Positions 37,656 to 62,905 of a stretch of DNA of 64,000 bases are shown one piece after another (the first letter of the stretch is position 1; every line of letters starts with the position of its first letter). Both the position numbers and the translations under genes were made by a program. The stretch is taken from contig HG799467.1 of NCBI GenBank assembly GCA_000531095.1, forward strand, positions 270,536 through 334,535, given 5' to 3'. The notes under the pieces are model-generated. The model saw nothing but the letters and a program-made list of their open reading frames with translations, ran no database searches and was not told where the DNA came from. Source of the DNA: Gemmata massiliana. Lineage in GTDB: Bacteria > Planctomycetota > Planctomycetia > Gemmatales > Gemmataceae.

Positions 37656-37675
37656 CACCCAAACGGATTCCCCGC

Positions 37676-45788: not shown

Positions 45789-48700
45789 ATGGAACCGCGC
45801 GACCTCATCGTTTTGACCCCTTCGGGAGCCGCCGACCCGTCACTCGCTATTGCCGCCTGCCGTGCAGGTGCGCGTGGCGTGTTGGACCTGGAGTTCGGCT
45901 CCCGCTTACTTGCGTCCCAAGCACTTACGAAACTCGCCCGGTTCGCAACCGGGTACGGTGTTCAGCTCCGCACGGACGCCACAGATCTGTTTGACCTCCT
46001 CGGTCAATTCAAACCCGCGTTCGTGATTCTCGCCGGGGCCGATCACCCCACTCTTGCAGCGCGTATGCGGGATCTGAATGCCGCGGGCATCGAAGTTTTG
46101 CGCGAAGCCACGAGCGTCGCGGAAGCATCGCGCGCGGTCGAACTCGGGGCGAAGGGCATCGTCCTGAAGGGCCACGAGGCCGGCGGGCGCGTCGGCGCCG
46201 ATACGTCGTTCGTGCTGCTCCAGCGGTGGCGCCGGTTCGCGGATAAGAACAGCGTGACGGTCCCATTTTGGGTGCGTGGGGGACTCGGGGCGAATACGGC
46301 GGCTGCGTGTGTCGCGGGCGGCGCGCGCGGTGGCGTTCTCGATTCGCAGGTGCTCCTCACGCACGAAACTCCTCTGCGCGAAGCCGCGCGGAAGCGCGTC
46401 GCGGGGTTGGACGGGAGCGAGACGCTCGTTCTCGGCGCGCGACTCGGTGAAGGCTACCGCATCTACGCGCGTCCGGATTGCGCCGGTGCGCAGGAACTTC
46501 GCGAAGGAAAGACGAGCGCCTCCAGCAACGCGACACTTTCCGCGGAAGAAAAGCTGACCGCGTGGCGCGAAGCGGTTCGCATGCGCGTCGCCGCTGATCC
46601 GTCCGCGGGCGTGTGGCTCTGCGGTCAGGACATCGTGACCGCGGCGCCGCTCGCGGCGAAGGGGTTGACCGTTGCGGGTGTGGTGCAGGCAATCTGCGCC
46701 CGCGTAACGCACCAACTGGAAGCGGCGAAGCGACTGAAGCACCTCGCGCCGGACTCATCGCTCGCGAAATCACACGGGACAAAGTACCCGATTCTGCAAG
46801 GGCCGATGACCCGCGTCAGCGACACGGCCGCGTTCGCGGACAGTGTGGCCGCGGGCGGTGCGCTGCCGTTCCTGGCGCTGGCGCTACTGCGCAAAGCGGA
46901 AACGGAAAAGCTCCTCGCGGAAACGAAGACGAAGCTCGGTGCGAAGCCGTGGGGCGTCGGCATCCTCGGCTTCGTGCCCAACGAGATCCGCAGCGAACAA
47001 CTCGAAGCGATTCGCAAGTACAAGCCGCCGTTCGCGATCATTGCAGGTGGGCGCCCGGACCAGGCCCGCGAACTCGAAACGCAGGGCATCCCGACGTACT
47101 TGCACGTTCCGTCGCCCGGCCTGCTGAAGATGTTCCTCAAGGACGGTTCCCGGAGGTTCATCTTCGAGGGGCAGGAGTGCGGCGGTCACATCGGCCCGCG
47201 CGCGAGTTTTGCGCTGTGGGAAGCGATGGTCGAAGTCCTGCTCGAAAACATCGGCAACAAGCCCGCGGACGACCTGCACGTTGTTTTTGCCGGCGGCATT
47301 CACGACGCGCTCTCTGCGAACATGGTCGCGGTGCTGAGCGCGTCGCTCGCCGAAAAGGGTGTGAAGGTCGGTGTGCTGCTCGGGACCGCGTACCTGTTCA
47401 CGAAGGAAGCGGTGCGCGGCGGCGCGATCACGGAGCGCTTCCAGAAGGAAGCCCTCGCGTGCGCGGACACTGTGCTGCTCGAAACCGGCCCGGGGCACGC
47501 GATCCGCTGTATCCCGACGCCCTACGCGGACGTGTTCGAGTCCGAGAAGCGGAAGCTGAAGGCCGAAGGCAAGACGCCGTTGGAAGTCGGCATTGCCCTT
47601 GAGCGCATGAACCTCGGGCGGCTCCGGGTCGCGAGCAAGGGCGTGGACCGCGCGCCGTCCGTGAACGGTAACGGGAGCGGTCTCGCCGACGTGAGTGCGG
47701 ACGAGCAGTTCGCACGCGGCATGTACATGATCGGGCAGATCGCCGCGCTCCACGATAAAGTCACGACTATCGCCGAACTGCACGCGAACGTGACCGACAG
47801 CATCATCCTGCCCGAATCGGCCGTTCGCACCCAGGATGTCGAACTGCCCGCGCCGCCGCCGTGCGACGTCGCGATCGTCGGGTTGTCGTGCTTCTACCCG
47901 CAATCCACTTCGCTGTGGCAGTACTGGGAAAACATCCTCGCGAAGACGAACGCCGTCATCGAGATCCCGCCGACGCACTGGGACTGGCGGCCGTACTACG
48001 ATCCCGACCCCCGCGCCAAAGACAAGATGGTGTCGAAGTGGGGCGGGTTCATGTCGGACATCACGTTCGACCCGCTCAAGTACGGGATCACGCCCAAGAG
48101 CATCCCGAACATCGAGCCGCTGCAACTGCTGCTGCTCGAAGGCGTGAACCAGGCGCTTGCTGACGCGGGCTACCTGGATCGGCCGTTCGCCCGCGAACGC
48201 ACCTGCGCCATCCTGGGCGTCGGTGGCGGCGGGATGCCGCTGTCCGTCGCATACGGGTTCCGCGCGTGTATGCCGCTGCTCGATTCGATTCCCGGCGTGC
48301 CGGTGAAGTCGAACGAGATCGTCGCGCTGGGCGAGGGCATGCTGCCGGAATGGACGGAAGACTCCTTCCCCGGCATCTTGCTGAACGTCGCGGCCGGGCG
48401 GGTCGCGAACCGGTTCAACCTCGGCGGCCCGAACATGGCGATCGACGCCGCGTGCGGGTCGTCGTTGGCCGCGCTGTACGCCGGTGTTCGTGAACTGAAC
48501 GACGGCACGAGCGACGTCGCGATCGTGATGGGTGGCGACGCAGTGCAGACGCCCTACGCCTATGTCGCGTTCTCGAAGACGCACGCGCTCAGCCCGAAGG
48601 GGCGGTGCCGGCCGTTCGACGCGGACGCCGACGGTATCGCACTCGCCGAGGGCGTCGGTATTGCGGTGCTGAAGCGACTCGCGGACGCGGAACGCGACGG

Positions 48701-51700
48701 CGACCGGATTTACGCCGTCATCAAGGGGGTCGGGGCTTCCAGCGACGGCCGCGACAAGGGACTCACCGCGCCGCGTGCGGAAGGTCAGCTCCGCGCGCTG
48801 CACCGGGCCTACGCTCAGGCTCGCGTGAACCCGGCGAACGTCGCGCTCGTGGAAGCGCACGGCACCGGGACCGTGGTCGGCGACCAGACCGAGGCTCGCG
48901 CGATTGGCCAGTTGATGCGCGATGCCGGGGGCGACCCGCAGTCGTGCGCGATCGGTTCGGTGAAGTCGATGATCGGGCACAGTAAGTGTGCCGCCGGCCT
49001 CGCGGGGCTCATCAAGACCGCGTTCGCGCTGCACCACAAGGTGCTCCCGCCCACGCTGGTCGAGACGCCGAACCCGAAGGCGAATCTCGAAGGCGGACCG
49101 CTGTACCTGAACACCGAAGCGAAGCCGTGGGTCCACGGGGCAGAGCACCCGCGAACCGCCGGCGTGAGCGCGTTCGGTTTCGGTGGCACGAACTTCCACA
49201 CGGTGCTCGAAGAGTACACTGGCGACTACCTGAACCGCCCGAACACCGGGATTCGTCAGTGGCCGACGGAACTCTTCGTGTGGCGCCGAGCGGACAAGGC
49301 CGCGATCACCACGAGCCTGAAGAGCGTGCGCGACGCGATCGTTGCTGGCGCACGACCGGCGCTGGCCGATCTCGCGGCGAGCGTGTGGCAGAGCAGCAAA
49401 ACGGCACCGGCCGGTAACGCGACACTCGCGGTGATTGCGTCCTCGCTCGACGACCTCAAGGAAAAGCTCGACGCGGCCCTCGAAGCGCTGCCCAAAGCGA
49501 CCGAGACGTGCACGGACCCGCGCGGGATCTACTTCGCCGCGAAGTCCGCGCCCGCGGGCAAGGTCGCGTTCCTGTTCCCGGGGCAGGGATCGCAGTACCC
49601 GGACATGCTCGCGCAGGTCGCGATGACGTTCTCCGAGGTGCGCGACGTTCTCGACCGGGCGGAAGCCGCACTCGACGCCGATCTCGACAAGCCGCTGAGC
49701 CGGTTCATCTACCCGCCGTCGTCGTTCACACCGGAACACGAGGCCACGAATCGCAACGAGCTGCGCCGGACGGAAATCGCGCAGTCGAGCATCGGTGCGA
49801 CGAGCATCGGCATGTTTCGGTTGCTCACGTCGCTCGGGATCGAAGCCGATTTCTTCGCGGGCCACAGTTACGGCGAGTACGCGGCGCTTACGGCGGCCGG
49901 GGCGCTCTCCGAAGACGACCTGATGCACCTGTCGTTCAAGCGCGGCTTGGCGATTCGTGAAGCCGCGATCAACGCCCCGGGCGGGATGATCGCGGCGGAC
50001 AACACCGCCGAGGCGATCGCGCCGGTGCTGAAGGGCATCGCCGATGTGTGGATCGCGAACCACAACTCGCCGACCCAAACCGTGATCGCGGGTACCGAAG
50101 CCGGGGTCAAGGTCGCCGCGGAGAAGCTCCAGGCGGCGGGGATCCGCTCGCAGCGGATCGCGGTCGCGTGCGGGTTCCACTCGCCGCTCATCGCGGGGGC
50201 GAAGCCGGCGCTGGCCGCCGCTCTTTCGCGGGCCACGTTCACGGCCCCGAGTAAGCCAGTGTTCTCGAACACGAGTGCCGTGCCGCACCCGGCCGACGGG
50301 AGCGTGATCGCGAAGCAACTCGCGGAGCACCTCGTGTCGCCGGTGCGATTCGCGGACGAAATTCGTGCGATGCACGAGGCCGGCGCGCGGGTCTTCGTGG
50401 AGGTCGGGCCGCAAGCGGTTCTGACCGGACTCACGGGCCAGATCCTCGCGGGCCGACCGCACCTCGCGCTCGCGAGCGACGCGAAGTCCCGCCCGGGGCT
50501 GGTGCAACTCGCCCACCTGCTCGGGCAACTGCTCGCGGTCGGTGTATCGGCCAACCTCGACCGCCTCTTCGTGGGCCGGAACGTGCAAGCGTTCGACCTC
50601 GCGAAGCTCAACGCGGACACCGGCAAGCCGAAACTCGCGCCGACGACGTGGCTCGTCAACGGCATTCGGAGCAAACCGCTGAACGCGCCCGAACCGCGGT
50701 TGCTGGGGCAAGCACTTCCGGCCAACGCTGCGGCCCGGAACGAAGCCCCGCGGCCCGATACGAACGGCAAGGCGAAGCCGAAACCGGTGCAGCCCGAAAG
50801 TTCGACCAAGCCCGTGCCCCCGCCCGCGCCGACCCCCGCTCCGAAGTCACCCGCGCCCAACGCTGCCGCTCTACCGCCCGCTGTCACCACGCCCTCACGA
50901 GCGATGATGCACAACACCGAAACTCAACCCGCTCTGTCGGTCCCCTCCACTAACGGGCACGCGCATCATCATGCCGCGCCCGATGGTGCCGCAGCCGTGA
51001 TGATGCGGTTCCAGGAGGTGATGGGGCGCTTCCTCGATACGCAGAAGTCCGTGATGCTCGGCTTCCTCGGCGCGCCCAACGCGGCCGCCACCGCTCCCGC
51101 GCCGCACACGAACGGCCACGCCGCGTACCCCGTGGTGCCGCACACGAACGGGCACAGCTACACGAACGGGAATGGCAACGGCCACGCCCACACCAACGGT
51201 CACGCCCACACGAACGGGCACGCGACCCCGATGCCGGTTCCCGCGCTGGCGACCAACCGCATCGCGACGCCAGTGGTTGCCCGGCCGCAAGCGCCGGCGC
51301 CCGTCGTCAGCAACAAGGCCGAAACGAACGGCAAACACGCGCCGGTTGCCGAAGCCGCGCCCGTGGCCGTTCCCGCGCCGGCGAAGAAGCCCGCGGGCGG
51401 TGCGTTGGACCGCGATACGCTGCTCGCCCGGTTGCTCGACCTCGTGAGCGAGCGCACCGGTTACCCGAAGGAAGCGCTGAGCATCGACCTCGACCTCGAA
51501 GCCGACCTGGGGGTCGATTCGATCAAGCGCGTCGAGGTGCTGGGCGCGCTCGCCGAGAGCATCGAGGCCGGTGCGGACGGCAAGCAGCCGAACCTGGAGA
51601 TGGAGAAGCTCTCTGTCATCAAGACGCTCCGCGGGATCGCCGACTACGTGATGGGTGCGCTGAACGAAGCCACGCCCGCGTCGGCTCCTTCGACGAATGG

Positions 51701-53366
51701 CAAGCACGAGGCCCCCGCGCTGCCTGCTGCCAGCGAAGCGCCCGCGACCCGGGCCAACGCGAACGGCGACTTTCACCCCGGCGCGCGACAGGGTGATGTT
51801 CAGCGGCTCGTGGTGCGCCTGATCGACGCGCCGCTCCCGATCCGGCCGACGTTCAGCCCGCCGACCGGCACCATCGTCATCACCGATGACGAACTCGGTG
51901 TCGCGCAAGAACTGGCCGACCGGCTCGCGGAACTCGACATCAAGACCGCGCTCGTTCGCATGGGCAAGAACGAGGGCTTCAACGCCGATCTGACCAACCC
52001 CGTTGCGGTGAGCGAACTGCTCGGCCGCGTGCGCGAGAAGTGCGGCGCGGTGTCCGGCCTGGTTCACCTGCTGCCGCTCGCGGAACCGCCCGCGGGCGAA
52101 ACCGATGAACAGCGGATGCGGCGCGAAGTGAAGTCGCTGTACCTGCTCGCTCGCGGGTTGGAAAACGACATCCGCGCGGCCGGGACGAACGGCTCTGCCG
52201 TGCTGCTCACGGTGACCGCGATGGGCGGCGCGATGGGGTACAGCGACGAACTGCCGAGCGAGTTCTTCGCCGGTCACGGTGGCATCGCCGGGTTCACCAA
52301 GTGCCTCGGGTACGAGTGGCCCGAAGTCACCGTTCGCGTCGTGGACGTGAACGCGGAAGCCGCCGCGCCGCGGCTCGTCGAGCAGCTCCTCGGCGAACTC
52401 GGTGACCCGGACGGCCCGTTCGAGGTTGGTCGCGACGGTGAGTTCCGCAAGACGTGGCAGGTCGATCCGGGACCGTTGGAGAAAGACACCCAGGCGATCG
52501 AGCTCGACGCGAACAGCACGGTGCTCGTCACCGGTGGCGCACGCGGCATCACCGCGAAGGTCGCGCTGGAAATCGCGTCGCGGTACAAGTCGAAGCTCGT
52601 GCTGGTCGGTAGCTCGCCCGCGCCGGCCGTCGAGAGCGCGGACACAGCCTCGCTTCAGACGCCGGCGGAGATCAAGGCCGCGCTATTGAAGCAACAACCC
52701 GGCGCGAAACCGGCCGCGGTCGAGGCCGCGTACAAGCGCCTGCTCAAGGACCGCGAGATCCGCGCCAACCTCGACGCGATCCGGACCGCGGGCGGTTCCG
52801 CTGAGTACCGCGCGGTCGATGTTCGTGACTCCGCCGCGTTCGGCGGCCTCATCGACGAACTGAACGCCAAAGGTGGGATCGCGGGTGTGATCCACGGTGC
52901 CGGGGTGATCGAAGACAAGCTCCTGCGCGACAAGACGCCGGAGTCCTTCGACCGCGTGTTCGGCACGAAGGTCGATAGCGCCCTGACGCTGACAAGGAAA
53001 CTCGATCCGGCCAAGCTGAAGTTCTTCGCGCTGTTCGCCTCGATCACGAGCCGCTACGGGAACCGCGGACAGTCGGACTACGCCGCCGCGAACGAAGTGC
53101 TCAGCAAGCTTGCGTGCGATCTCGACCGCAAGTGGCCGGGGCGCGTGGTGTCGGTCGCGTGGGGGCCGTGGGCCGAGGTCGGCATGGTCGCGGACCTGGA
53201 GAAGCACCTCGTGGCCCGTGGGCTGAAGCTCATCGAACCGGCCGTCGGCGCCGGGTTCGCGGTGGACGAAGTGATCTTCGGCACGAAGGGCGAACCGGAA
53301 GTCGTTGTGGCGGGTGGCACCGAATCGGCGCCGAAGCAGCGCGCCAGCGCACAACCCGTGGCGTAA
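45789..53366 (+). CDS. PUFA-synthase-like megasynthase: NPD-NPD-KS-AT-ACP-KR
   Basis: About 2525 residues; start ATG 45789 with GAGG six bases upstream. Residues about 5-330 and 345-640 are two flavin TIM-barrel (2-nitropropane dioxygenase/PfaD-type) domains, with LKGHEAGGRVG near 127 and EGQECGGHIG near 460. KS about 690-1140 (Cys in DAACGSS near 888; EAHGTGT near 1022; GSVKSMIGHSKC). AT about 1255-1560 (GHSYGEY near 1357). A His/Asn/Gly-rich linker follows. One ACP (LGVDSIKRVE near 1907), the motif used by PUFA synthases. KR about 2240-2520 (TGGARGI; YGNRGQSDYAAAN). No DH, which is encoded downstream. The stop codon lies inside a sequencing linker, so the true C-terminus is uncertain. Confidence 0.88.
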   Translation: MEPRDLIVLTPSGAADPSLAIAACRAGARGVLDLEFGSRLLASQALTKLARFATGYGVQLRTDATDLFDLLGQFKPAFVILAGADHPTLAARMRDLNAAGIEVLREATSVAEASRAVELGAKGIVLKGHEAGGRVGADTSFVLLQRWRRFADKNSVTVPFWVRGGLGANTAAACVAGGARGGVLDSQVLLTHETPLREAARKRVAGLDGSETLVLGARLGEGYRIYARPDCAGAQELREGKTSASSNATLSAEEKLTAWREAVRMRVAADPSAGVWLCGQDIVTAAPLAAKGLTVAGVVQAICARVTHQLEAAKRLKHLAPDSSLAKSHGTKYPILQGPMTRVSDTAAFADSVAAGGALPFLALALLRKAETEKLLAETKTKLGAKPWGVGILGFVPNEIRSEQLEAIRKYKPPFAIIAGGRPDQARELETQGIPTYLHVPSPGLLKMFLKDGSRRFIFEGQECGGHIGPRASFALWEAMVEVLLENIGNKPADDLHVVFAGGIHDALSANMVAVLSASLAEKGVKVGVLLGTAYLFTKEAVRGGAITERFQKEALACADTVLLETGPGHAIRCIPTPYADVFESEKRKLKAEGKTPLEVGIALERMNLGRLRVASKGVDRAPSVNGNGSGLADVSADEQFARGMYMIGQIAALHDKVTTIAELHANVTDSIILPESAVRTQDVELPAPPPCDVAIVGLSCFYPQSTSLWQYWENILAKTNAVIEIPPTHWDWRPYYDPDPRAKDKMVSKWGGFMSDITFDPLKYGITPKSIPNIEPLQLLLLEGVNQALADAGYLDRPFARERTCAILGVGGGGMPLSVAYGFRACMPLLDSIPGVPVKSNEIVALGEGMLPEWTEDSFPGILLNVAAGRVANRFNLGGPNMAIDAACGSSLAALYAGVRELNDGTSDVAIVMGGDAVQTPYAYVAFSKTHALSPKGRCRPFDADADGIALAEGVGIAVLKRLADAERDGDRIYAVIKGVGASSDGRDKGLTAPRAEGQLRALHRAYAQARVNPANVALVEAHGTGTVVGDQTEARAIGQLMRDAGGDPQSCAIGSVKSMIGHSKCAAGLAGLIKTAFALHHKVLPPTLVETPNPKANLEGGPLYLNTEAKPWVHGAEHPRTAGVSAFGFGGTNFHTVLEEYTGDYLNRPNTGIRQWPTELFVWRRADKAAITTSLKSVRDAIVAGARPALADLAASVWQSSKTAPAGNATLAVIASSLDDLKEKLDAALEALPKATETCTDPRGIYFAAKSAPAGKVAFLFPGQGSQYPDMLAQVAMTFSEVRDVLDRAEAALDADLDKPLSRFIYPPSSFTPEHEATNRNELRRTEIAQSSIGATSIGMFRLLTSLGIEADFFAGHSYGEYAALTAAGALSEDDLMHLSFKRGLAIREAAINAPGGMIAADNTAEAIAPVLKGIADVWIANHNSPTQTVIAGTEAGVKVAAEKLQAAGIRSQRIAVACGFHSPLIAGAKPALAAALSRATFTAPSKPVFSNTSAVPHPADGSVIAKQLAEHLVSPVRFADEIRAMHEAGARVFVEVGPQAVLTGLTGQILAGRPHLALASDAKSRPGLVQLAHLLGQLLAVGVSANLDRLFVGRNVQAFDLAKLNADTGKPKLAPTTWLVNGIRSKPLNAPEPRLLGQALPANAAARNEAPRPDTNGKAKPKPVQPESSTKPVPPPAPTPAPKSPAPNAAALPPAVTTPSRAMMHNTETQPALSVPSTNGHAHHHAAPDGAAAVMMRFQEVMGRFLDTQKSVMLGFLGAPNAAATAPAPHTNGHAAYPVVPHTNGHSYTNGNGNGHAHTNGHAHTNGHATPMPVPALATNRIATPVVARPQAPAPVVSNKAETNGKHAPVAEAAPVAVPAPAKKPAGGALDRDTLLARLLDLVSERTGYPKEALSIDLDLEADLGVDSIKRVEVLGALAESIEAGADGKQPNLEMEKLSVIKTLRGIADYVMGALNEATPASAPSTNGKHEAPALPAASEAPATRANANGDFHPGARQGDVQRLVVRLIDAPLPIRPTFSPPTGTIVITDDELGVAQELADRLAELDIKTALVRMGKNEGFNADLTNPVAVSELLGRVREKCGAVSGLVHLLPLAEPPAGETDEQRMRREVKSLYLLARGLENDIRAAGTNGSAVLLTVTAMGGAMGYSDELPSEFFAGHGGIAGFTKCLGYEWPEVTVRVVDVNAEAAAPRLVEQLLGELGDPDGPFEVGRDGEFRKTWQVDPGPLEKDTQAIELDANSTVLVTGGARGITAKVALEIASRYKSKLVLVGSSPAPAVESADTASLQTPAEIKAALLKQQPGAKPAAVEAAYKRLLKDREIRANLDAIRTAGGSAEYRAVDVRDSAAFGGLIDELNAKGGIAGVIHGAGVIEDKLLRDKTPESFDRVFGTKVDSALTLTRKLDPAKLKFFALFASITSRYGNRGQSDYAAANEVLSKLACDLDRKWPGRVVSVAWGPWAEVGMVADLEKHLVARGLKLIEPAVGAGFAVDEVIFGTKGEPEVVVAGGTESAPKQRASAQPVA
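51104..51232 (+). repeat. Degenerate coding minisatellite (HTNGHA linker)
   Basis: Imperfect tandem units of about 15-18 bases (CACACGAACGGCCACG-like), encoding HTNGHA-type repeats in the linker between AT and ACP. It should be a flexible, His-rich tether. Such tracts vary in length between strains and are hard to assemble. Confidence 0.75.
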
Positions 53367-53403
53367 TAACTTCGTATAGCATACATTGTACGAAGTTATA
53401 CGA
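53362..53403. other. loxP-type 454 paired-end linker left in the assembly
   Basis: 53366-53399 is a 34-bp lox site: left arm ATAACTTCGTATA, spacer GCATACAT, right arm TGTACGAAGTTAT (one mismatch from loxP). The flanks CGTA on the left and ACGA on the right extend the match to the 42-bp linker of 454 Titanium paired-end libraries. This is very unlikely to be natural planctomycete DNA. It supplies the TAA that ends the megasynthase ORF. Sequence left and right may not be adjacent in the genome. Confidence 0.9.
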
Positions 53404-53476
53404 TGATGCTCGGCTTCCTTGCGCTATTCCCGGTGACCCCTTCGGGGTCCAAAGGCAAAATGCCGGGGCGTTTGTT

Positions 53477-53664
53477 GTTTTCGCGGCCCCAACGGGGCCA
53501 CCGGGAATAGCCAGGGGTTTCAACCCCTGGTTCTTTTTCCGTTTTCGCGGCCCCAATGGGGCCACCGGAAGTAGTCAGGAGTTTCAACCCCTGGTTCTTT
53601 TCGTTGTTTCGTGGCCTCAATGGGCCACCGGGAATAGCCAGGAATTTCACCCCTGGTTCTATTA
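53477..53664. repeat. Three tandem 64-65-bp repeats with internal palindromes
   Basis: Units start at about 53477, 53541 and 53606 (GTTTTCGCGGCCCC, GTTTTCGCGGCCCC, GTTTCGTGGCCTC). Each has GGCCCCAAyGGGGCC, then ATAGCCAGGGGTTTCAACCC-like hairpin sequence; the third unit is decayed. They fill the space between the synthase and AT genes. Related CCAGGGGT/ACCCCTGG arms occur at 6580-6738. No spacers of unique sequence, so not a CRISPR. Confidence 0.85.
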
Positions 53665-53682
53665 ACGCGAACAATTTCTCTC

Positions 53683-55173
53683 ATGACTCAGACCCTCGCG
53701 CAACCGCAACCCCGCGTCATTCCTCCCGTGACCGGATGGGACACGGAAGTTTTCGTGCTGCGCGGTGACGATCGCGCTGCGCTGCGCCAGCGCGTTCTTG
53801 CGCTTGTGGAACAGGTCGAGCACCAGCCCGACGCCCCGCTCGTCGATTTCGCTGCGGCGCTCGCGCGCGAGGTTCAGCCCGGCGGCTCACGCCTCACGGT
53901 GGTTGCGGGTTCCCGGGCCGATCTGCTCACGCGCCTCAAACGCGCCGCGGACCGGCTGGGCGATCCGAAGACCAAGCAGATCCGGGACGCGAACGGCCTC
54001 TACTTTTTCGAGCAGCCGCTGGCAGAGCAGGGCACGGTCGCGTTCCTGTTCCCGGGCGAAGGCGCGCAGTACCTGAACATGCTCGCTGACCTGTGCTGCG
54101 TGTTCCCGGAGGTGGAAGAAACCTTCGCGTGGTGCGACCAGCTCGCGGCCGAGGCCGGGCGCCCGGAATCATCGCTGCGGCGCGTGCTGCACCTCCCGAC
54201 CGATGCCACCGCCGAGGACAAGGCCGCGGCCGAACTCGAACTCCGGGGGTTGGGGCCGTCCATCTTCGGGGTTCTGCTCGCGGACCAGGCGATCCTCCGT
54301 GTGCTCGAAAATCTGCAAATTCCGGTGTCCGCGATGGCCGGTCACAGCGCCGGCGAACTCGGCGCGCTGCTCGCGAGTGGTGCGATGAACGCCCGCGACC
54401 AGCACGGCTCGCGGTTGCCGGAAATCATGGAGATCATGCAGCGCCAGGAGAGCGACGCGGGCGGGCCGGAGGTCGTGCTGCTCGCGGTCGGCGCGAGCAA
54501 GGCGACGATCATGGAGGTCGCGAACGAGGTCGCGGGCGGCTCGGTGATCGTCGCGATGGACAACTGCCCGCACCAGTGCGTCGCGGTGGGGCCGGCGCAC
54601 CCGGTCGCCGCGGTCGAGGCTGCGCTCACGGAACGCGGGATCATTTGCGAGCGGCTGCCGTTCAAGCGCCCGTACCACACCCCGCTGTTCGAGCCGTACA
54701 TGGGGGCGCTCCGCGAACTGTTCGTGGGTGTGCCATTCAATCAAACGCAAACGGCGGTTTACTGCTGCTCGACCGGCGAACTGTTCCCGACCGACCCCGA
54801 CGCGATGCGAGCGCTCGCCGTGAACCACTGGGTCACCCCGGTCGAGTTCACGCGGATGATCGAGAGCATGCACCGCGACGGCGTGCGCCTTTTCGTCGAG
54901 TGCGGCCCGCGCGGGAACCTGTCGGCGTTCGTGGAAGACATCCTCCGGGGTAAGTCGTTCGCCGCGATCCCCGCGAACGTGCTCCGCAAGAGCGGCCCGA
55001 CGCAGATCAACCACATGGTTGCGCAACTGGTCGCGCACGGCGTGGACCTGAACTTGGGCTACCTGTACGCGGGGCGGGTGGGCGAAGAACCTAACCCCCT
55101 AACCCCTTCCCTAAGAAGGAAGGGGGAGAAATCCCAAACATCAGCGAATACACGCCGCAAGCGCCGGTTTTAA
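53683..55173 (+). CDS. Stand-alone acyltransferase (PfaB-like) of the lipid synthase cluster
   Basis: 496 residues. Malonyl/acyltransferase domain at about 115-440: FLFPGEGAQYLNM, active-site GHSAGELGALL, later FKRPYHTPLF and VECGPRGNLSAF. The N-terminal 100 residues resemble the linker that precedes AT domains. The last 29 residues (from EEPNPLTPSLRRKGEK) are encoded by a repeat element at 55090-55211 and are probably a recent extension. Domain order and place in the cluster fit the separate AT of PUFA-type synthases. Confidence 0.85.
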   Translation: MTQTLAQPQPRVIPPVTGWDTEVFVLRGDDRAALRQRVLALVEQVEHQPDAPLVDFAAALAREVQPGGSRLTVVAGSRADLLTRLKRAADRLGDPKTKQIRDANGLYFFEQPLAEQGTVAFLFPGEGAQYLNMLADLCCVFPEVEETFAWCDQLAAEAGRPESSLRRVLHLPTDATAEDKAAAELELRGLGPSIFGVLLADQAILRVLENLQIPVSAMAGHSAGELGALLASGAMNARDQHGSRLPEIMEIMQRQESDAGGPEVVLLAVGASKATIMEVANEVAGGSVIVAMDNCPHQCVAVGPAHPVAAVEAALTERGIICERLPFKRPYHTPLFEPYMGALRELFVGVPFNQTQTAVYCCSTGELFPTDPDAMRALAVNHWVTPVEFTRMIESMHRDGVRLFVECGPRGNLSAFVEDILRGKSFAAIPANVLRKSGPTQINHMVAQLVAHGVDLNLGYLYAGRVGEEPNPLTPSLRRKGEKSQTSANTRRKRRF

Positions 55174-55211
55174 GCCCCTCTCCGTTTAGGGGAGGGGTTG
55201 GGGAGGGGTTA
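55090..55211. repeat. C/G-rich inverted repeat invading the AT gene's 3' end
   Basis: Left arm about 55090-55126 (CCTAACCCCCTAACCCCTTC...) and imperfect right arm about 55175-55211 (CCCCTCTCCGTTTAGGGGAG...). The left arm is read through as the C-terminal tail of the AT protein and the stop lies just before the right arm. It looks like another dispersed palindromic repeat family. Confidence 0.75.
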
Positions 55212-55229
55212 CAAGCAGGTTCCTCCATC

Positions 55230-57027
55230 ATGAACGGTTACCTCGACGTGATGGAGCAGTTTCCTCGACGCCCAGCGCGAGGTGATGACGGCGTTCTTCC
55301 GCGGGCGCGGGCAGTCGGCCCCGCTGCCGCCGGAACTGTTCGCGCTCGCGGATCTCTCGATCCCGATCGATCCGGCGCCTCTTGCTCCGGCCGCACCCCG
55401 ACCGTTCGCACTCATCGAGAGCGTCATTCAACACGAGCCGGGGCGCGAGATCACGTTCCGCCGGGTGATGGACGAGCGCGAAGACCTGTACGCGGACGAT
55501 CACACGCTCGGCGGGCGCGGGGTCAGTCGGGAGAACCCGGCGCAGAACGGGCTCCCCGTACTCCCGATGACATTTAGCCTCGAAGCGATGTCCGAAGCGG
55601 CGGCGATGCTCGCGCCGGGCAAGGTCGTGATCGGGCTCCGCAACATCCGGCTGTTCCGGTGGCTGCCATTTGATGCCGAAACGACCACGCTCGAGGTGCG
55701 CGCTACGGTGTCGTCCGTGGACGAGGCGACCGGGACCGTCGAGGTCAAAGCGAACGTCCGCGACCTCGGCAACTCGTTCCTCCGCGACGGCGCGAACAAA
55801 GCGTCGTCCGAAGCGGTGATCGTACTCGCGGACCGGTACCCGGACCCCGCGCCCCCGCTGCCGTTCGATCTCACCGACGAAGTACCGTGCAAGTCCTCGA
55901 TCGAGGACTTGCGCCGGAACATGTTCCACGGCCCCGTCTTCCAGATGATTCGCACGCTCGATCGCACCGGGCGCGAGGGGATCGAGGGCACGCTCGAAGT
56001 ACAGTCGCGCGACACGTGGTTCCGCTCGAACAAAGACCCGCACTACGCGATCGACCCGGTGCTGATGGACGCCGCGATGCACATCCTCGGCGCGTGGCAC
56101 CTCGAACAGCCGGACTGGACCGGGCGCATCCTTCTGCCATTTGAGGTGCAGAAGGTCGAATACTTCGGCCCCACGCCGGAAATCGGTTCGCATCTGGTCG
56201 TGCGCGGGCACAACGAGCAGGAGTCGGCGCGGCACTTTCGCCACGGTCTGGAAGTGTTCGACACACAGGGACACTTGTGGCTGCGGCTCACGGGCGCGGG
56301 ATACTGGCGCTTCTATCTCCCGTTCGGGCACGTGAACTTCTTCGGCCCGAAGGACGAATATTACCTCAGTCGTTACTGGCCCGAAGCTGTGGGGACCAAG
56401 CCGAATTCCGAATCCGCGGCCCCGTTCGCGCGGTGCCACTTCATCGATCCGCCCGCGGACCTGAAGCAGCCGGTGCTGCGCGCGGCGGGCGCGTATGTGA
56501 CGATGACTCCGACCGAACTCGATACTTTCGGGAAGTGGACCGGGACCGACGCGGGCCTGAACGACTGGTTCTTCGGCCGGCTGCTCGCGAAAGACGCCGC
56601 CCGCGCCGCGTGGGTGCAGAAGTACGGCGAGACGATTTTCCCCGCCGACATGGAAACGGAAGAAGCCGACGGCCGCATTGTGTGCCGCCCGCGCGGGGCT
56701 GCTAAGAGTGAATCGTTCCCGCCCGTGAGTGTGGCCATCTCAGAAGGTACCGTGGCTGCCTTCTCCGCGTTCGCAAAACAGGTCGGTGTCGCGCTTCAAA
56801 CGATCCCGAAGAAAGCTTCGGCCGAAGTCGAACGGGACGCGCGGGCGCGAGTGGCGTGCGACGCGGTCGCGGACGCGCTGCGTATTCCTGCTGAAGGCTG
56901 TGTGCTCCATTCTCTCGACGCGAACACCGGGGCCGCGCTGGTGCGCGCAAGCGGTCAACGGTTCCGCGTTCAGACGGCGCGACAGAAGGAATCGGTCGTC
57001 GCTACCACTCTGTGCGAGGTAGCGTGA
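55230..57027 (+). CDS. Dehydratase protein of the lipid synthase with PPTase-like C-terminus (frameshifted)
   Basis: The likely start is ATG 55230 (MNGYLDVMEQF), but one extra C at 55263-55264 breaks the frame. Without it the protein continues LDAQREVMTAFFRGRG, matching the FLDTQKSVMLGF motif in the megasynthase. As printed, only the frame from GTG 55282 is open (581 residues). Residues about 70-370: double hot-dog dehydratase with DDHTLGGRG (catalytic His) and DPVLMDAAMH (catalytic Asp). Residues about 410-560: a region like 4'-phosphopantetheinyl transferases (WFFGRLLAKDAARAAW, then VSVAISEGTVAAFSAF), but with changes at key sites. The stop overlaps the next ATG (TGATG). Confidence 0.82.
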
Positions 57028-57302
57028 TGCGAACCACCGATGAACTGCTCGAAGCACTCGGGAACGTCGTTCGGCAGACGTTCCCCGATCGTGATTTCCC
57101 CGATTCCGTTGATCTCGATACGCGGGCGTTCGGCGACCTCGGGCTCGCGTCCATCGACCTCGTCGTGCTGGCCGAGCGGCTGGATGCACATTTCGGGCGC
57201 CGGTTGCCGTTCGGTGTCTTCCTGAAAGGTTTGCGGGATCGTGGCGCGGAAGACCTGTCACTCGGCGATTTGGTCGCTTTTTTGCAACAACACGCGGGGT
57301 AA
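57027..57302 (+). CDS. Acyl carrier protein of the lipid synthase cluster
   Basis: 91 residues, one-base overlap with the dehydratase stop (TGATG), so translationally coupled. Carrier signature FGDLGLASIDLVVLAERLD, with the Ser of LGLAS as the phosphopantetheine site. Acidic helix 2 typical of ACPs. Differs from the PUFA-type LGVDS carrier in the megasynthase, so it may hand over a starter or accept the finished chain. Confidence 0.85.
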   Translation: MRTTDELLEALGNVVRQTFPDRDFPDSVDLDTRAFGDLGLASIDLVVLAERLDAHFGRRLPFGVFLKGLRDRGAEDLSLGDLVAFLQQHAG

Positions 57303-57440: not shown

Positions 57441-57456
57441 GTTAGCAATTGTTAGC
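57441..57456. repeat. TTAGC repeat motif (copy 2)
   Basis: GTTAGCAATTGTTAGC, identical to 35983-35998. The surrounding 57303-57470 contains three more GTTAGC units and resembles the region before the pentahaem cytochrome operon (for example an AATGTTAGC start and GGCCC-AAA before the motif). Lies about 85 bases before the hydrolase ATG. Confidence 0.7.
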
Positions 57457-57541
57457 ACGGCAGGGGAAGAGAACGCACCGCCGTGCCGGGGCAATCCGAC
57501 AACACTCGGTCCACAAGACAGCAGCTCCAAGACGAGAAATC

Positions 57542-58378
57542 ATGCCCGAAGTTGAGGTCAACGGCACACGGCTCTTTTACCAGCAGTCCGGCGAAGGTCC
57601 GGACGTCGTACTGGTCCACGCGGTCACGAGTAACCAGGCCGTGTGGGTGTTCAGCGGGTTGGTGGAAGCGCTCGCGGCCGACTTCCGCGTAACCGCATAC
57701 GACATGCGCGGCCACGGCGCTAGCGCACGCCCGGCAACCGGATACACGTCGGCGGTGATGGCCGAAGACTTCCGTCAGTTTCATGCGGCTCTCGGACTGA
57801 AACCGGCGTTCCTTGTGGGGCACAGTTTCGGTGGCGTCGTGAGTATGCACGCCGCGGTCGTTGCGCCGGAGTGCGTGGCGGGTGTGCTGCTCTCGGACTC
57901 GTTCTTTCCCGGTTTGAAGCACATTGAACCGAATTTCGGCAAGATGGGAATTTGGGGCGATGTGCGAGAGACATTTGCTCGTGTCGGAGTCGAACTTGGC
58001 GACACGGTGGACTTCACCCGCCTCTTCCGTGAGACGGCCGCACTGTCTCCCGAAAAGATGAAGGAACTCGAAGACATTTATGGCGCGTTCGGCCGCGGGT
58101 GGTTGCGGCAGCTCCCGCGCCTCGCCGAAACGACGTGTGGCGATGAAGTTCTGGCCGAGGCCGGGCTCACGGAGCGGGTGCTCGCGGGGATCACGAAGCC
58201 GGTGGTCGCGCTGTACGACGAATTCTCCCCCTTCCTTGCCACATGCCGGTGGCTAGAACAACATCTTGCTAAGTGTGTGGCCGAGATCATCCCGGCCGCG
58301 AAGCACTTGGCAATGCTCGACAACACGGCGGGCTTCACGGACGCCGTAAAACGGCACCTGACGCGGCTCTCGCAGTAA
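57542..58378 (+). CDS. Alpha/beta hydrolase
   Basis: 278 residues. Typical fold blocks: LVHAVTSNQAVW oxyanion region, YDMRGHGAS, nucleophile elbow GHSFGG (Ser about 95), and a late His in AAKHLAML. Acid residue probably Asp in LYDEF. Cytoplasmic. It stands just after the synthase cluster and two bases before the exporter permease, so it may release or modify the lipid product (inference). An esterase, lactonase or thioesterase role is open. Confidence 0.8.
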   Translation: MPEVEVNGTRLFYQQSGEGPDVVLVHAVTSNQAVWVFSGLVEALAADFRVTAYDMRGHGASARPATGYTSAVMAEDFRQFHAALGLKPAFLVGHSFGGVVSMHAAVVAPECVAGVLLSDSFFPGLKHIEPNFGKMGIWGDVRETFARVGVELGDTVDFTRLFRETAALSPEKMKELEDIYGAFGRGWLRQLPRLAETTCGDEVLAEAGLTERVLAGITKPVVALYDEFSPFLATCRWLEQHLAKCVAEIIPAAKHLAMLDNTAGFTDAVKRHLTRLSQ

Positions 58379-58380
58379 CT

Positions 58381-59544
58381 ATGCACTTTGTCACGTTCAT
58401 CCTGAAGAACCTCACGCGGCGCCCGATCCGCACGGCCCTAACCGTTTTGGGGCTAGCGGTTACGGTCGGGAGCATGATCGCGTTCCTGGCGGTCAGCCAC
58501 AACGTGAAGGAGTCCGCGGAGCGGGCCGTTCGGGGCTTCGATCTCCAGGTCATGCAGGCCGGTAAATCGAGCGGGCTGAACAGCGATTTCAGCGAATACT
58601 TCGTCGAAGCGGCGCGGAAGCTCCCCGAGGTGTCGCAGGTGGCCGAGGGCGTTGCGGACATGGCGGACATGACGCGCGACGGCGGGGCGGTCGACGCGGT
58701 CCTGATCTTCGGGTGGCGGGCGGACAACTTCGCGTTCGACGAGTTGAAGTTCACCTCCGGGCGCAAGTTCGAGGCCGGCGAGCACCACAAGGTCATGCTC
58801 GGGAACATGTTGGCCGACAACCTCGGTAAGAAGGTCGGCGACAAACTGGTTCTCGGGGGCGACACCAAGAACCCCTACGAGGTGATCGGGGTCTACGAGA
58901 GCCCGCACATCTTCGAGCGGGGCGGGGCGATCGTCCCTTACAAGGATGCTCAAGTCATTACCGGTAAACGGGACCGCGTGACCGGCTTCTCGGTCCGCGT
59001 GCGGAAGGCGGGTGCCCAGGCCACGCCCGCCGAGGTGGAAGCGGCGCGGAAGAAGATCGAGGCGCTGGAAGACCCCAATGACACGACTGCTCGGCTCACG
59101 GCCCAGACGCCCGAAGACTTCGTGAAGTCGCTCCAGCAACTCAAACTCATGCGGGCCGTGTCGTGGTTGATCTCCGCGATCGCGCTGGCGATCGGCGTCA
59201 TCAGCATGTTGAACACGATGGCGATGTCGGTGCTGGAGCGCACGCAGGAGATCGGTATTCTGCGAGCGGTCGGCTGGCCCCCGCGCCGGGTGATCGGCAT
59301 GGTTCTGGGCGAGGCCGTGCTGATTGCTACCGCTGCTGCCGCTGGGGGGACGCTGATCGCACTTTTGGGAATGCAGGTTCTCACTCTCTCGCCGAAGGTG
59401 AACGGGTTCATCGAGCCGAACGTGGCCCCAATGGTGGTCGTTCAGGGCGCTCTCATCACCGTGTTCATCGGCGTGATCGGTGGCGCGTACCCCGCGTTCC
59501 GGGCGTCCCGCATGCTGCCAACGGAGGCGCTCCGCCATGACTGA
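58381..59544 (+). CDS. MacB/LolC-type FtsX permease
   Basis: 387 residues starting at ATG 58381, two bases after the hydrolase stop. First membrane helix at residues about 17-40 (TALTVLGLAVTVGSMIAFLA), a periplasmic domain of about 220 residues, then three helices with the conserved ERTQEIGILRAVGWPPRRVI block. The C-terminus PAFRASRMLPTEALRHD is the family ending. Overlaps the ATPase gene by eight bases. Together they form an exporter or lipoprotein-release system. Confidence 0.85.
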   Translation: MHFVTFILKNLTRRPIRTALTVLGLAVTVGSMIAFLAVSHNVKESAERAVRGFDLQVMQAGKSSGLNSDFSEYFVEAARKLPEVSQVAEGVADMADMTRDGGAVDAVLIFGWRADNFAFDELKFTSGRKFEAGEHHKVMLGNMLADNLGKKVGDKLVLGGDTKNPYEVIGVYESPHIFERGGAIVPYKDAQVITGKRDRVTGFSVRVRKAGAQATPAEVEAARKKIEALEDPNDTTARLTAQTPEDFVKSLQQLKLMRAVSWLISAIALAIGVISMLNTMAMSVLERTQEIGILRAVGWPPRRVIGMVLGEAVLIATAAAAGGTLIALLGMQVLTLSPKVNGFIEPNVAPMVVVQGALITVFIGVIGGAYPAFRASRMLPTEALRHD

Positions 59545-60259
59545 CGGCCCCGCCGCTCACCTGCTCTATGCCGACCAGGTGGTGAAGACCTACCCGGACG
59601 GGGACGTCCACGCGCTCAACGGGGTCACGCTCGGGGTGAAGGCCGGGCAGCACGTCGCCATCACCGGGCCGTCCGGGTGCGGTAAGTCCACGCTCCTGAA
59701 CCTGCTCGGTGTGCTCGACAAGCCCGACGCCGGTGAGGTGTACTTCCGCGGCGAACCGCTCTCGCGCCACCCGGACCTGAACAACTTCCGTGCCCGTCAG
59801 ATCGGGTTCGTGTTCCAGTCGTTCTTCCTGATCCCGACGTTGAGTGCACGCGAGAACGTGCAGGTGCCGATGTTCGAGGGGCCTCCCCGGAGCACCCGCG
59901 AGCGCGTGCGGAAGGCGGACGAGTTGCTCGAACTCGTGGGCATGGCGAAACGCGCCAACCACTTGCCGCTGAAGCTCTCGATCGGCGAGCGCCAGCGCGT
60001 GGCTCTGGCCCGCGCGCTCGCGAACGATCCGGCGATGCTCCTGGCGGACGAACCGACCGGGAACCTCGACTCGGACAACGCGGTCAAGGTGCTCGACCTT
60101 TTCGCGTCGCTCCAGAAGTCGCGCAACCTCGCGCTCGTGGTGGTCACGCACAGTGACGAGGTCGCCGAGCGTGCCGACCGCGTGATCCGCATGCGGGACG
60201 GGCGCGTGGTCAACGATTCCGGAACCGCCCGAGTGTCCACTTCCGGATGCGCGAGTTAA
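59537..60259 (+). CDS. ABC transporter ATP-binding protein, LolD/MacB type
   Basis: About 240 residues, start ATG 59537 overlapping the permease by eight bases. Walker A GPSGCGKST, Q-loop FQSFFLIPTL, Walker B MLLADEPTGNLDS, switch His in VVTHSDE. The signature is LSIGERQR rather than LSGGQ, one unusual residue. Partner of the preceding permease. Possibly exports the product of the nearby lipid synthase or lipoproteins; the context alone does not prove it. Confidence 0.87.
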   Translation: MTDGPAAHLLYADQVVKTYPDGDVHALNGVTLGVKAGQHVAITGPSGCGKSTLLNLLGVLDKPDAGEVYFRGEPLSRHPDLNNFRARQIGFVFQSFFLIPTLSARENVQVPMFEGPPRSTRERVRKADELLELVGMAKRANHLPLKLSIGERQRVALARALANDPAMLLADEPTGNLDSDNAVKVLDLFASLQKSRNLALVVVTHSDEVAERADRVIRMRDGRVVNDSGTARVSTSGCAS

Positions 60260-60455
60260 GGCGGGTATTCTTTTCGCGCCGGGCTGTCACTATCTTTGGG
60301 TCAGATAGCACTTTCAGAGACACTTTTTGCCAGTGCCTTAAGTGAAACGGGAGCGTGCTCGGTTACCCGGCGCTTTTTCTCGCGCACCCGCTCCGGCGCG
60401 CTACGATTGGGTTGACTGACGCCGGTTTGATTTGCCTCGCGCCCAGAGGATCGCG

Positions 60456-62039
60456 ATGTTCACGTTCGTGAAAGCACTCGAGACACTTGCCCCGCCCCCA
60501 CGAGCTTCACGATTGCTGCGGTTGACCGCGATGAAGTTCCCGCTGCTGCCCCAAGCGGCCGAGACGATGGCGCTCGGGATGGTCATCAGCGACGCCACCC
60601 GTCCCGATTACCCCATCGTGTACTGCAACCCCGGGTTCGAGCGTCTCACGGGCTACACGTCCGACGAAGTCGTGGGCCGCAACTGCCGGTTCCTCCAGGG
60701 GCCGGGTACCGACACCCAGGAACTCGAACGGCTCCGTCGTTCACTGCGAGAACACGCCGGGTGTTCGGTCGTGCTGCGGAACTACCGTAAAGACCGGACC
60801 CCGTTCTGGAACGCGCTCTCCGTGACACCGCTCGAAGACGAGACCGGAACGGTCACGCACTTCGTCGGCGTGCAGACCGACATCACCCACGTGAAGGAAC
60901 TCGAAGCGCAGTTCCTCCAGGCTCAGAAGATGGGAGTGGTCGGTCGGCTCACGGGCGGTGTGGCCCACGACTTCAACAACCTGCTCACCGTCATCAACGG
61001 GTTCGCCGAGGCCGTACTCGATCTGCTGCCGCCGGACAACCCGACCCGGGACATGGTCGCCGAGATCGCCGCGGCGGGTTCGCGTGCGGCCGGGCTGACG
61101 CGCCAGTTGCTCACGCTCAGCCGGAAGGGTGGCGCCCGCCGCGCGCACGCGGACCTGAACGCCGTGGTGAACTCGTGCAGCGGGATTCTGCGCCGGCTCC
61201 TCGGTTCGGGCGTCGAACTCCGCGCCGAACTCGCGCCGGATCTGCACCCCACCACCGCCGACCCCGGGCACGTCGAACAAGTGCTCATCAACCTTGTGGT
61301 GAACGCGCGCGACGCGATGCCCAACGGCGGCGCACTGACCGTTTCGACGGCCGACGCGCACGTGAAGAGTGACGATCCCCAGCACCCCAGGATTCCGGCT
61401 GGCATGTACGCGGTACTCCGGGTCGCGGACACCGGGCACGGGATGGACCCGGCGACTTTGAAACGCATCTTCGAGCCGTACTTCACGACGAAGCCCGCGG
61501 GGCGCGGGACCGGGTTGGGGCTATCGACGGTTTGGGACATCGTGCAAAAGAGCCAGGGGCACGTGTGCGTGGACTCGGAACTCGGGCGCGGGACCGAATT
61601 CCGGGTGTACCTGCCGCGCGTGGACGCGCTGCCGTTCGAGCCGCTCCCGGACTCCTCGGGCGAGCATCGCTTGCGCGGGTCGGAAACGGTTCTGATCGTA
61701 GACAGTGACACGTCCGTTCGGGCACTAATGACCCATGCGCTCCGCTCGCGGGGCTACACCGTACTTGCAGCGAGCGACCCGCAGGAAGCCACCGCGCTCG
61801 TGTCCGACCACCCCGGCACGATCGATCTGGTGGTTTGCGACCTGGTGCTCTCGGGCGAGTCGGGGAACGCGCTGGCCCGTCGGCTCCGGGTGGCCCGGCC
61901 GGATCTGGCGCTCCTGCTCACGTCGGGGTGCGTCGGCGAGGGGTGCGAAATACCGGACGCTGCGGCGCCGTTCCTGCCGAAACCGTTTACACCGGCCGGA
62001 CTCGCGACCGAAGTGCGCAAGGTGCTCGACCGGGGCTGA
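60456..62039 (+). CDS. LOV blue-light sensor histidine kinase with receiver domain
   Basis: About 527 residues; ATG 60456 preceded by AGAGGA. PAS/LOV domain at residues about 40-145, with the flavin-adduct motif GRNCRFLQG (Cys77) and NYRKDRTPFWN, then FVGVQTDIT. Histidine kinase domain: phosphoacceptor His171 in VAHDFNNLL, N-box NLVVNARDAMP, G-boxes DTGHGMD and GRGTGLGLS. C-terminal receiver with Asp462 in VCDLVLSGESG and the Lys of PKPF. All catalytic residues are kept, so it should be a light-regulated hybrid kinase. No obvious target nearby. Confidence 0.92.
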   Translation: MFTFVKALETLAPPPRASRLLRLTAMKFPLLPQAAETMALGMVISDATRPDYPIVYCNPGFERLTGYTSDEVVGRNCRFLQGPGTDTQELERLRRSLREHAGCSVVLRNYRKDRTPFWNALSVTPLEDETGTVTHFVGVQTDITHVKELEAQFLQAQKMGVVGRLTGGVAHDFNNLLTVINGFAEAVLDLLPPDNPTRDMVAEIAAAGSRAAGLTRQLLTLSRKGGARRAHADLNAVVNSCSGILRRLLGSGVELRAELAPDLHPTTADPGHVEQVLINLVVNARDAMPNGGALTVSTADAHVKSDDPQHPRIPAGMYAVLRVADTGHGMDPATLKRIFEPYFTTKPAGRGTGLGLSTVWDIVQKSQGHVCVDSELGRGTEFRVYLPRVDALPFEPLPDSSGEHRLRGSETVLIVDSDTSVRALMTHALRSRGYTVLAASDPQEATALVSDHPGTIDLVVCDLVLSGESGNALARRLRVARPDLALLLTSGCVGEGCEIPDAAAPFLPKPFTPAGLATEVRKVLDRG

Positions 62040-62128: not shown

Positions 62129-62905
62129 ATGCGCACCGCTATCGTTATCCCCGCGAGGTTCGCGTCGTCGCGGTTGCCCGGTAAGCCGCTCCTGCGCGAA
62201 ACCGGGAAGTACCTGATCCAACACGTCTTCGAGCAGGCGCAGAAGGCGAAGTGCGCGTCCGACGTGATCGTGGCCACCGACGACGACCGTATCTTCGCGG
62301 CCGTGCGTGAGTTCGGTGGTACCCCCGTGATGACGCGCGAGGACCACGTGTCCGGGACCGATCGCGTGGCCGAAGTTGCTGCGCGTCTTACTGCGGACGT
62401 GGTCATCAACTTGCAGGGCGACGAACCGCAACTGGACCCGGACGCGATCGATCTGCTCGCGGAACTGATGCGCGCACCCGGTTCGGACATGGCCACGCTC
62501 GCGGTGCCGATCACGGACGCGGAGACGTACCGCAACCCGAACGTGGTCAAGGTGGTGTGCGACGACCGTGGGCGCGCGCTGTACTTCTCGCGGTCACCGA
62601 TCCCGATGGTGCGCGACGGCGAACCGGACTTCACCGCTCGGCCCGCGCGGTTCCTTCAGCACCTGGGCGTGTACGCCTACCGGCGCGATTTCCTTCTCCG
62701 GATCGCGGGCGAACCGCCGCATCCGTTAGAGCAATCGGAAAAACTCGAACAGCTCCGCGTGCTCGGCACGGGTGGCACAATCATGCTCGGGCAGGTGCAC
62801 CGCGCGCACCGCGGTGTGGACACGCCGGCCGATTACGCCGATTTCGTGCGGTGGTACCGGCAGAACGGGGACAACGGGGCGGGGGGAACGCGCCGCGCGG
62901 CTTAA
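62129..62905 (+). CDS. kdsB: 3-deoxy-manno-octulosonate cytidylyltransferase (CMP-Kdo synthetase)
   Basis: 258 residues, usual family length. N-terminal nucleotide site IPARFASSRLPGKPL, then ATDDDRI, GTDRVAE, NLQGDEPQLDP and GVYAYRRDFL, all conserved in KdsB. It activates Kdo with CTP for lipopolysaccharide, implying a lipid A-type outer membrane. pyrG, which makes CTP, follows about 100 bases downstream, a common pairing. The short C-terminal tail (NGAGGTRRAA) is not conserved. Confidence 0.93.
   Translation: MRTAIVIPARFASSRLPGKPLLRETGKYLIQHVFEQAQKAKCASDVIVATDDDRIFAAVREFGGTPVMTREDHVSGTDRVAEVAARLTADVVINLQGDEPQLDPDAIDLLAELMRAPGSDMATLAVPITDAETYRNPNVVKVVCDDRGRALYFSRSPIPMVRDGEPDFTARPARFLQHLGVYAYRRDFLLRIAGEPPHPLEQSEKLEQLRVLGTGGTIMLGQVHRAHRGVDTPADYADFVRWYRQNGDNGAGGTRRAA

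Follow-up and report, generated by a model that had tools for sequence, protein, structure and literature searches.

The window, as we call the whole 64,000-nucleotide stretch that was analyzed (G000:C6:270536-334535), comes from a genome of 9.27 Mb. At the center of the locus is a long open reading frame (45720/45789-53366, +; 2548 aa) whose product has the order NPD1-NPD2-KS-AT-ACP-KR: two TIM barrels of flavin-dependent type, followed by a ketosynthase (KS), an acyltransferase (AT), one acyl carrier protein (ACP) and a ketoreductase (KR). The start at 45789 (MEPRDLIVLTP) is common to the close relatives of this protein. Pfam reported the NMO model in two stretches, both the N- and C-terminal ketoacyl-synt models, Acyl_transf_1, PP-binding once and KR; the PfaA model TIGR02813 scored 1081.5 bits against the NCBIfam cut-off of 1010.1, which identifies a Pfa-type KS-AT-ACP-KR chain. 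The expected motifs were present in the KS, the AT, the second acyltransferase (AT2), the KR, the dehydratase (DH) and both ACPs. The Pfam domains, TIGR02813 and AlphaFold2 thus agree with the original prediction of a PfaA-like core behind two flavin barrels. As originally noted, the main chain has one ACP: there is a single PP-binding stretch with a single ACP motif, rather than the tandem ACPs of PfaA in marine PUFA synthases. Such an arrangement is normal for this class, in which one ACP motif is the commonest state (34 of 46 distant full-length proteins).

Features of the synthase locus; positions are those of the window.
Feature	Position	Strand	Remarks
NPD1	45789..46742	+	Complete FabK-fold barrel; EAGGRVG at 46176, with Arg replacing the catalytic His; no motif I Met; probable pseudo-enoyl-reductase
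NPD2	46743..47798	+	Predicted FabK-type FMN enoyl reductase; motif I GPMTR (46800) and motif III ECGGHIG (47175) intact
Ketosynthase	47862..49214	+	Cys-His-His motifs at 48444, 48852 and 48963; in 21/21 full-length family proteins
Acyltransferase	49560..50474	+	GHSYGE (49860)
Single acyl carrier protein domain	51402..51644	+	GVDSI (51510)
Ketoreductase	52518..53177	+	TGGARG; Ser and Tyr motifs
Second acyltransferase, AT2	53683..55173	+	GHSAGE at 54340; in relatives, one continuous protein with the DH
Interdomain linker	55090..55260	+	Differs from L050 and L051 by two 1-nt indels; the frame between these meets a stop
PS-DH dehydratase	55282..56331	+	DDHTLGGRG at 55495, DPVLMDAAMH at 56053; whole ORF 55282-57027
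Vestigial phosphopantetheinyl transferase domain	56332..57027	+	Lacks the GxDxE and WCAKEA motifs of distant relatives
Free-standing second ACP, ACP2	57012..57302	+	LASID (57144)
Alpha/beta hydrolase, thioesterase-like	57449..58378	+	GHSFGG at 57818; in 19/29 family loci
MacB/FtsX-type ABC permease	58273..59544	+	In 18/29 family loci, several stretches ending before the gene
LolD/MacB-type ABC ATPase	59480..60259	+	In 15/29 family loci, several stretches ending before the gene

The tandem barrels raised a question: are they two domains of the PfaD type, as originally predicted, or one domain that has been split? The AlphaFold2 model of the tandem, based on 78 sequences, contains two complete eight-stranded barrels in one confident arrangement (pLDDT 95.9, pTM 0.95), and the model of NPD1 alone has a pLDDT of 96.8. 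A single split domain, which the original prediction had named as a possible refutation, was therefore rejected. In the fold comparison, which covered Foldseek's own best chains, NPD2 matched FabK with a Z of 35.6 and an rmsd of 2.1 over 298 residues, and NPD1, modeled alone, did so with a Z of 33.1 and an rmsd of 2.6 over 291 residues. The FabK model TIGR03151 likewise matched the individual barrels (3.6e-12 for NPD1, 1.1e-20 for NPD2), at scores of 46 and 74 bits, respectively, that lie far below its equivalog cut-off of 453 bits. The PfaD model TIGR02814 reported neither barrel at E<=0.001; its positive control, the genome's other Pfa cluster (L049), gave 295 bits. A profile search of solved structures (alignment A2) listed FabK and nitronate monooxygenases and not PfaD. 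Because the FabK model matches each barrel and TIGR02814 matches neither, the PfaD identity was abandoned; the true PfaD of this genome is in its other cluster.

The two barrels differ at the active site. Published motifs of the family are APMxG and xEAGGH with the catalytic histidine (PMC13311796). At these places NPD2 has GPMTR and ECGGHIG, and NPD1 has TPSG and EAGGRVG. The catalytic histidine was found in NPD2 of all 103 homologues and in NPD1 of only three. That set consists of 115 loci minus 12 (among L079-L091) that repeat family genomes; in what remains, the window's own genome is represented once (L159) and one record occurs twice (L070/L137). Moreover, M340 and H467 of NPD2 were invariant in 78/78 sequences. 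As to the FMN-binding residues, whose inspection had been proposed, NPD2 is thus intact in FabK motifs I and III, while NPD1 has lost both the Met and the His. From these motifs NPD1 is probably a conserved pseudo-reductase, apparently inactive, that might still bind flavin, since its EAGG and GG glycine motifs, including some phosphate-site glycines, are retained.

The greater divergence of the first barrel had been correctly anticipated: among the 78 sequences, mean pairwise identity was 35% for NPD1 and 58% for NPD2. In a barrel tree drawn from a subset of 26 loci, the NPD1s formed one group and the NPD2s another (SH-aLRT 98), and the mean path was 3.87 for NPD1 vs. 1.22 for NPD2, i.e., NPD1 has diverged about three times faster. 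As each barrel forms one group, it appears, within the limits of a quick tree with 26 loci, that the pair arose once and that its first half then lost the catalytic residue while keeping the fold.

The AT, DH and second ACP outside the main chain had been described as separate proteins. All three are present, but the separation of AT2 from DH amounts to two 1-nt indels, and wherever the stretch of a family locus includes both genes (23 of 29 loci), AT2 and DH share a single frame; in the other six, one or both genes are missing from the stretch. The same assembly also breaks pfaD into two frames, and we therefore suspect a sequencing error: the split in the window is probably an assembly or sequencing error or a very recent event, and the notion of naturally separate AT2 and DH proteins was rejected on these grounds. 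The linker at 55090-55215 contains G/C-rich, repeat-like stretches whose length varies among close relatives and which are in frame in L050 and L051. Beyond the DH, the phosphopantetheinyl transferase (PPTase) motifs GxDxE and WCAKEA, kept in L067, L089, L094, L104, L129, L142 and L148, have been lost from the window's PPTase domain; two other PPTases are encoded elsewhere in the genome. No similarity was found between ACP2 and the Streptomyces ACP with which it was compared.

The hydrolase and ABC genes complete the cluster. A plasmid-borne copy of the synthase in Methylosinus also has an ABC permease, an ATPase, an adaptor and TolC nearby; its ATPase is 39% identical to that of the window, and the likeness of the permeases is weak (20%). 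Immediately after the ABC genes comes a hybrid sensor histidine kinase (60432-62039), whose PAS domain is also recognized by models of blue-light (LOV) kinases. Downstream of the cluster, at a distance of a few genes, 62129-62905 encodes a kdsB-like CMP-Kdo synthetase, in keeping with an envelope that bears LPS. Upstream of the cluster, two proteins encoded within 37490-40989 gave weak matches to multihaem cytochromes c.

We found the tandem synthase in 32 of 95 family genomes, including all 19 of the genus; among these 19, one match is partial at a contig end and one has the first barrel only. In this last locus (L078, G019:C31), NPD1 runs straight into the KS without NPD2, through either loss or an assembly fault. 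Across the order, 31 of 102 genomes matched at a stricter limit, and 8 of 392 did so in an even draw from the phylum. A scan of the whole collection returned at least 587 relatives, and NPD1, NPD2 and KS lie in one frame in 79 of the best 80 of these, the remaining locus running out at a contig end. These 80 were picked with a tandem-barrel query, and it is the adjoining KS alone that is independent of that choice. They represent about a dozen phyla (Planctomycetota, Pseudomonadota, Acidobacteriota, Actinomycetota, Cyanobacteriota, Chloroflexota, Thermodesulfobacteriota, Myxococcota and others) and include many MAGs; an architecture specific to planctomycetes was rejected on this evidence. Five records of the plasmid collection also matched, among them Beijerinckia indica ATCC 9039. 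Two MAGs of the anammox genus Brocadia (L104 and L111) carry tandem-NPD synthases together with a DH.

The second protein of the distant loci is commonly KS-AT2-DH, sometimes joined by a PPTase, and its KS falls in a separate group of the KS tree (34 rows of the 113 KS rows, themselves a subset). Among the 29 family loci, a second KS, outside the NPD protein, was found only in the paralogous clusters L070 and L071. In the Gemmata-type version, the second KS that its relatives have is gone, and so are their PPTase motifs. The two paralogous clusters (G092:C418 and G004:C18) are second, divergent tandem-NPD synthases that stand beside a window-type one and have kept the second KS.

Domain order, motifs, modeled fold, conservation and neighborhood lead us to favor, as a rather probable reading, an iterative type I fatty-acid/polyketide synthase of a fused-reductase, secondary-lipid class, whose product would be mainly a saturated very-long-chain acyl group and not a PUFA. 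For such a synthase we infer the reaction order, the partner role of NPD1, saturation, chain length and export as follows. The AT would load malonyl onto the single ACP of the main chain, the KS would condense and the KR would then reduce; the DH of the second protein would dehydrate, and NPD2, as a predicted FMN enoyl reductase of the FabK type, would saturate the chain. AT2 may serve in starter loading or transfer, and ACP2 and the hydrolase in product release. NPD1, presumably incapable of catalyzing enoyl reduction, may act as the in-chain partner of NPD2, taking the place of one half of the usual homodimer. This partnership is suggested by the joint AlphaFold2 model and by a precedent in thraustochytrids, whose ER domains form ERb-ERc heterodimers (PMC13311796). 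The MacB-type ABC transporter could carry the finished lipid towards the envelope, because ABC genes adjoin the synthase both in family loci and in the Methylosinus copy. Several observations run against parts of this reading: NPD1 retains its glycine motifs, the residue that replaces the NPD1 histidine is not fixed across the class, the permease is only weakly like that of Methylosinus, ACP2 is not similar to the Streptomyces ACP, and G019 (L078), one fragmented genome, keeps NPD1 without NPD2, which does not suit a pure helper role.

A rival reading is that NPD1 is more than a structural element and has acquired a function of its own, in catalysis or in binding (of flavin, NAD(P)H or an acyl group), around the substituted Arg or Trp. 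A barrel whose EAGG and GG motifs persist in many phyla, and in which Arg (59) or Trp (17) stands at the place of the histidine in 76 of 103 proteins, would suit such a function. We nevertheless consider it unlikely, because in the wider class the place is also taken by F, L, V, A, I, N and other residues and because NPD1 has diverged some threefold faster than NPD2. Still less probable is a PUFA synthase in which double bonds are retained by skipping reduction in some cycles, the two barrels serving different cycles. The TIGR02813 match would accord with it, and duplicated ER domains do exist in the thraustochytrid PUFA synthases (PMC13311796). However, NPD1 has no catalytic histidine, and the window's cluster has one ACP in its main chain and neither the KS-CLF and FabA-type dehydratase/isomerase domains of marine PUFA synthases (types A/B) nor a PfaD.

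The PfaD and FabA domains instead sit in the genome's other cluster, L049 (G000:C4:754000-773900), which contains PfaD, KS pieces, an AT, KR-DH, PS-DH and a KS-rich, PfaBC-like protein. FabA-type domains were reported in two of its ORFs and in none of the proteins of the window's cluster. “PUFA-synthase-like”, the label first given to the window's cluster, is therefore a poor one, and with reductase and KS in the same chain, full reduction is the simplest expectation. The PfaD model matched 19/19 genomes of the genus (17/19 over the cut-off), while the pfaD of the window's assembly lies in two frames. L049 looks canonical, and several of its frames are broken, which suggests indel errors in the assembly. 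A system of the alkylresorcinol (Type P, ars) kind, in which a type III PKS from another locus would take over the acyl chain, is a further candidate. It would explain the front-end architecture and the single-ACP habit, which are those of Type P, and the genome does have a single type III PKS match at another site (L167, G000:C2:1215300). Yet tblastn with this type III PKS found none in the family loci L050-L078, in contrast to five of the best 80 of at least 587 loci, where one adjoins the synthase, and in the 113-row tree the window's KS and the type-III-linked KSs belong to separate clades; we thus regard it as improbable.

The saturating synthase with NPD1 as partner of NPD2 hence remains our preferred reading. 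A bolder extension of it, which we offer tentatively and as rather doubtful, is that pan-bacterial iterative lipid synthases contain an ancient enoyl-reductase pair in which a pseudoenzyme barrel acts by holding, positioning or gating its active counterpart, this in-chain heterodimer setting reductase programming and chain length. The version of the Gemmata lineage, devoid of a second KS and of PPTase activity, would then make an unrecognized, exported very-long-chain envelope lipid throughout the genus, whose members would have a canonical Pfa system in addition.

Planctomycetes and methanotrophs are sources of very-long-chain or (omega-1)-hydroxy acids. In the open-access literature we found no source that links such acids of planctomycetes to this cluster and, as originally stated, no characterized product; the accessible text of PMC7828035 covers other lipids only. 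Nor did we find, in the main texts covered there, a description of a fused reductase tandem whose first barrel is inactive. The fused reductase-PfaA architecture itself is already in print (PMC13291983), and the main text of this source, in what it says of fused pfaDA, makes no mention of two barrels or of a missing histidine. The chemistry of the synthase is probably ordinary chain extension. What the locus adds is that the fused reductase of this lipid synthase class, widespread yet little studied among bacteria, resembles FabK and is accompanied by a conserved twin that is apparently inactive. The NPD1-NPD2 pair makes the role of a pseudo-reductase in megasynthases directly testable, in a lipid pathway that is kept in 19/19 genomes of the genus and for which we found no link between genes and product.

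How does this synthase compare with known systems? With the marine PUFA synthases (PfaA-E) it shares the KS-AT-ACP-KR core; in those systems PfaD is separate and of another family, and there are several ACPs, a KS-CLF and dehydratase/isomerase domains (PMC3098273). FabK (TIGR03151; PDB 5gvh and 2z6i) resembles both barrels in fold and NPD2 in motifs, and is unlike NPD1, in which the His and Met motifs are missing. The fused pfaDA of Ottowia thiooxydans places the reductase ahead of PfaA and is accompanied by a pfaBC without KS-CLF, as in the window, although it is coupled to PKS-NRPS genes (PMC13291983). Fused pfaDA was also reported from Aquimarina and Flavobacterium and likened to Renibacterium (PMC13291983).

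Among the surveyed types, comparison with which had been proposed, it is Type P whose front end is shared; the tandem ACPs, PfaD, KS-CLF and FabA-type domains of types A and B are lacking, as is an adjacent type III PKS. Shulse and Allen list B. indica ATCC 9039 and Azotobacter vinelandii as Type P, and the ars cluster was noted for its single ACP (PMC3098273). Of the Azotobacter proteins, ArsA produces C23-C25 acids, and ArsD is a PPTase (PMC4824345); we liken ArsA to the window's protein from its published description, the likeness at the sequence level resting on B. indica. The synthase on B. indica pBIND02 consists of both barrels and KS-AT-ACP-KR and is followed by two genes annotated as encoding proteins with a 3-oxoacyl-ACP synthase III C-terminal domain, which we took for the type III PKSs of Type P, and by a PPTase protein. 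Like the window, it has tandem FabK-like barrels fused to KS-AT-ACP-KR and no second KS beside them. The window's cluster also carries the Type P combination of a reductase-fused KS-AT-ACP-KR chain and a DH-PPTase protein, the latter found in the related L148 and L129 as well, with its own PPTase part degenerate. Type P, for its part, has an annotated PPTase, with type III PKS genes lying between it and the synthase. The window's cluster differs from it in having no type III PKS and in carrying AT2, a free ACP, a hydrolase and the ABC genes.
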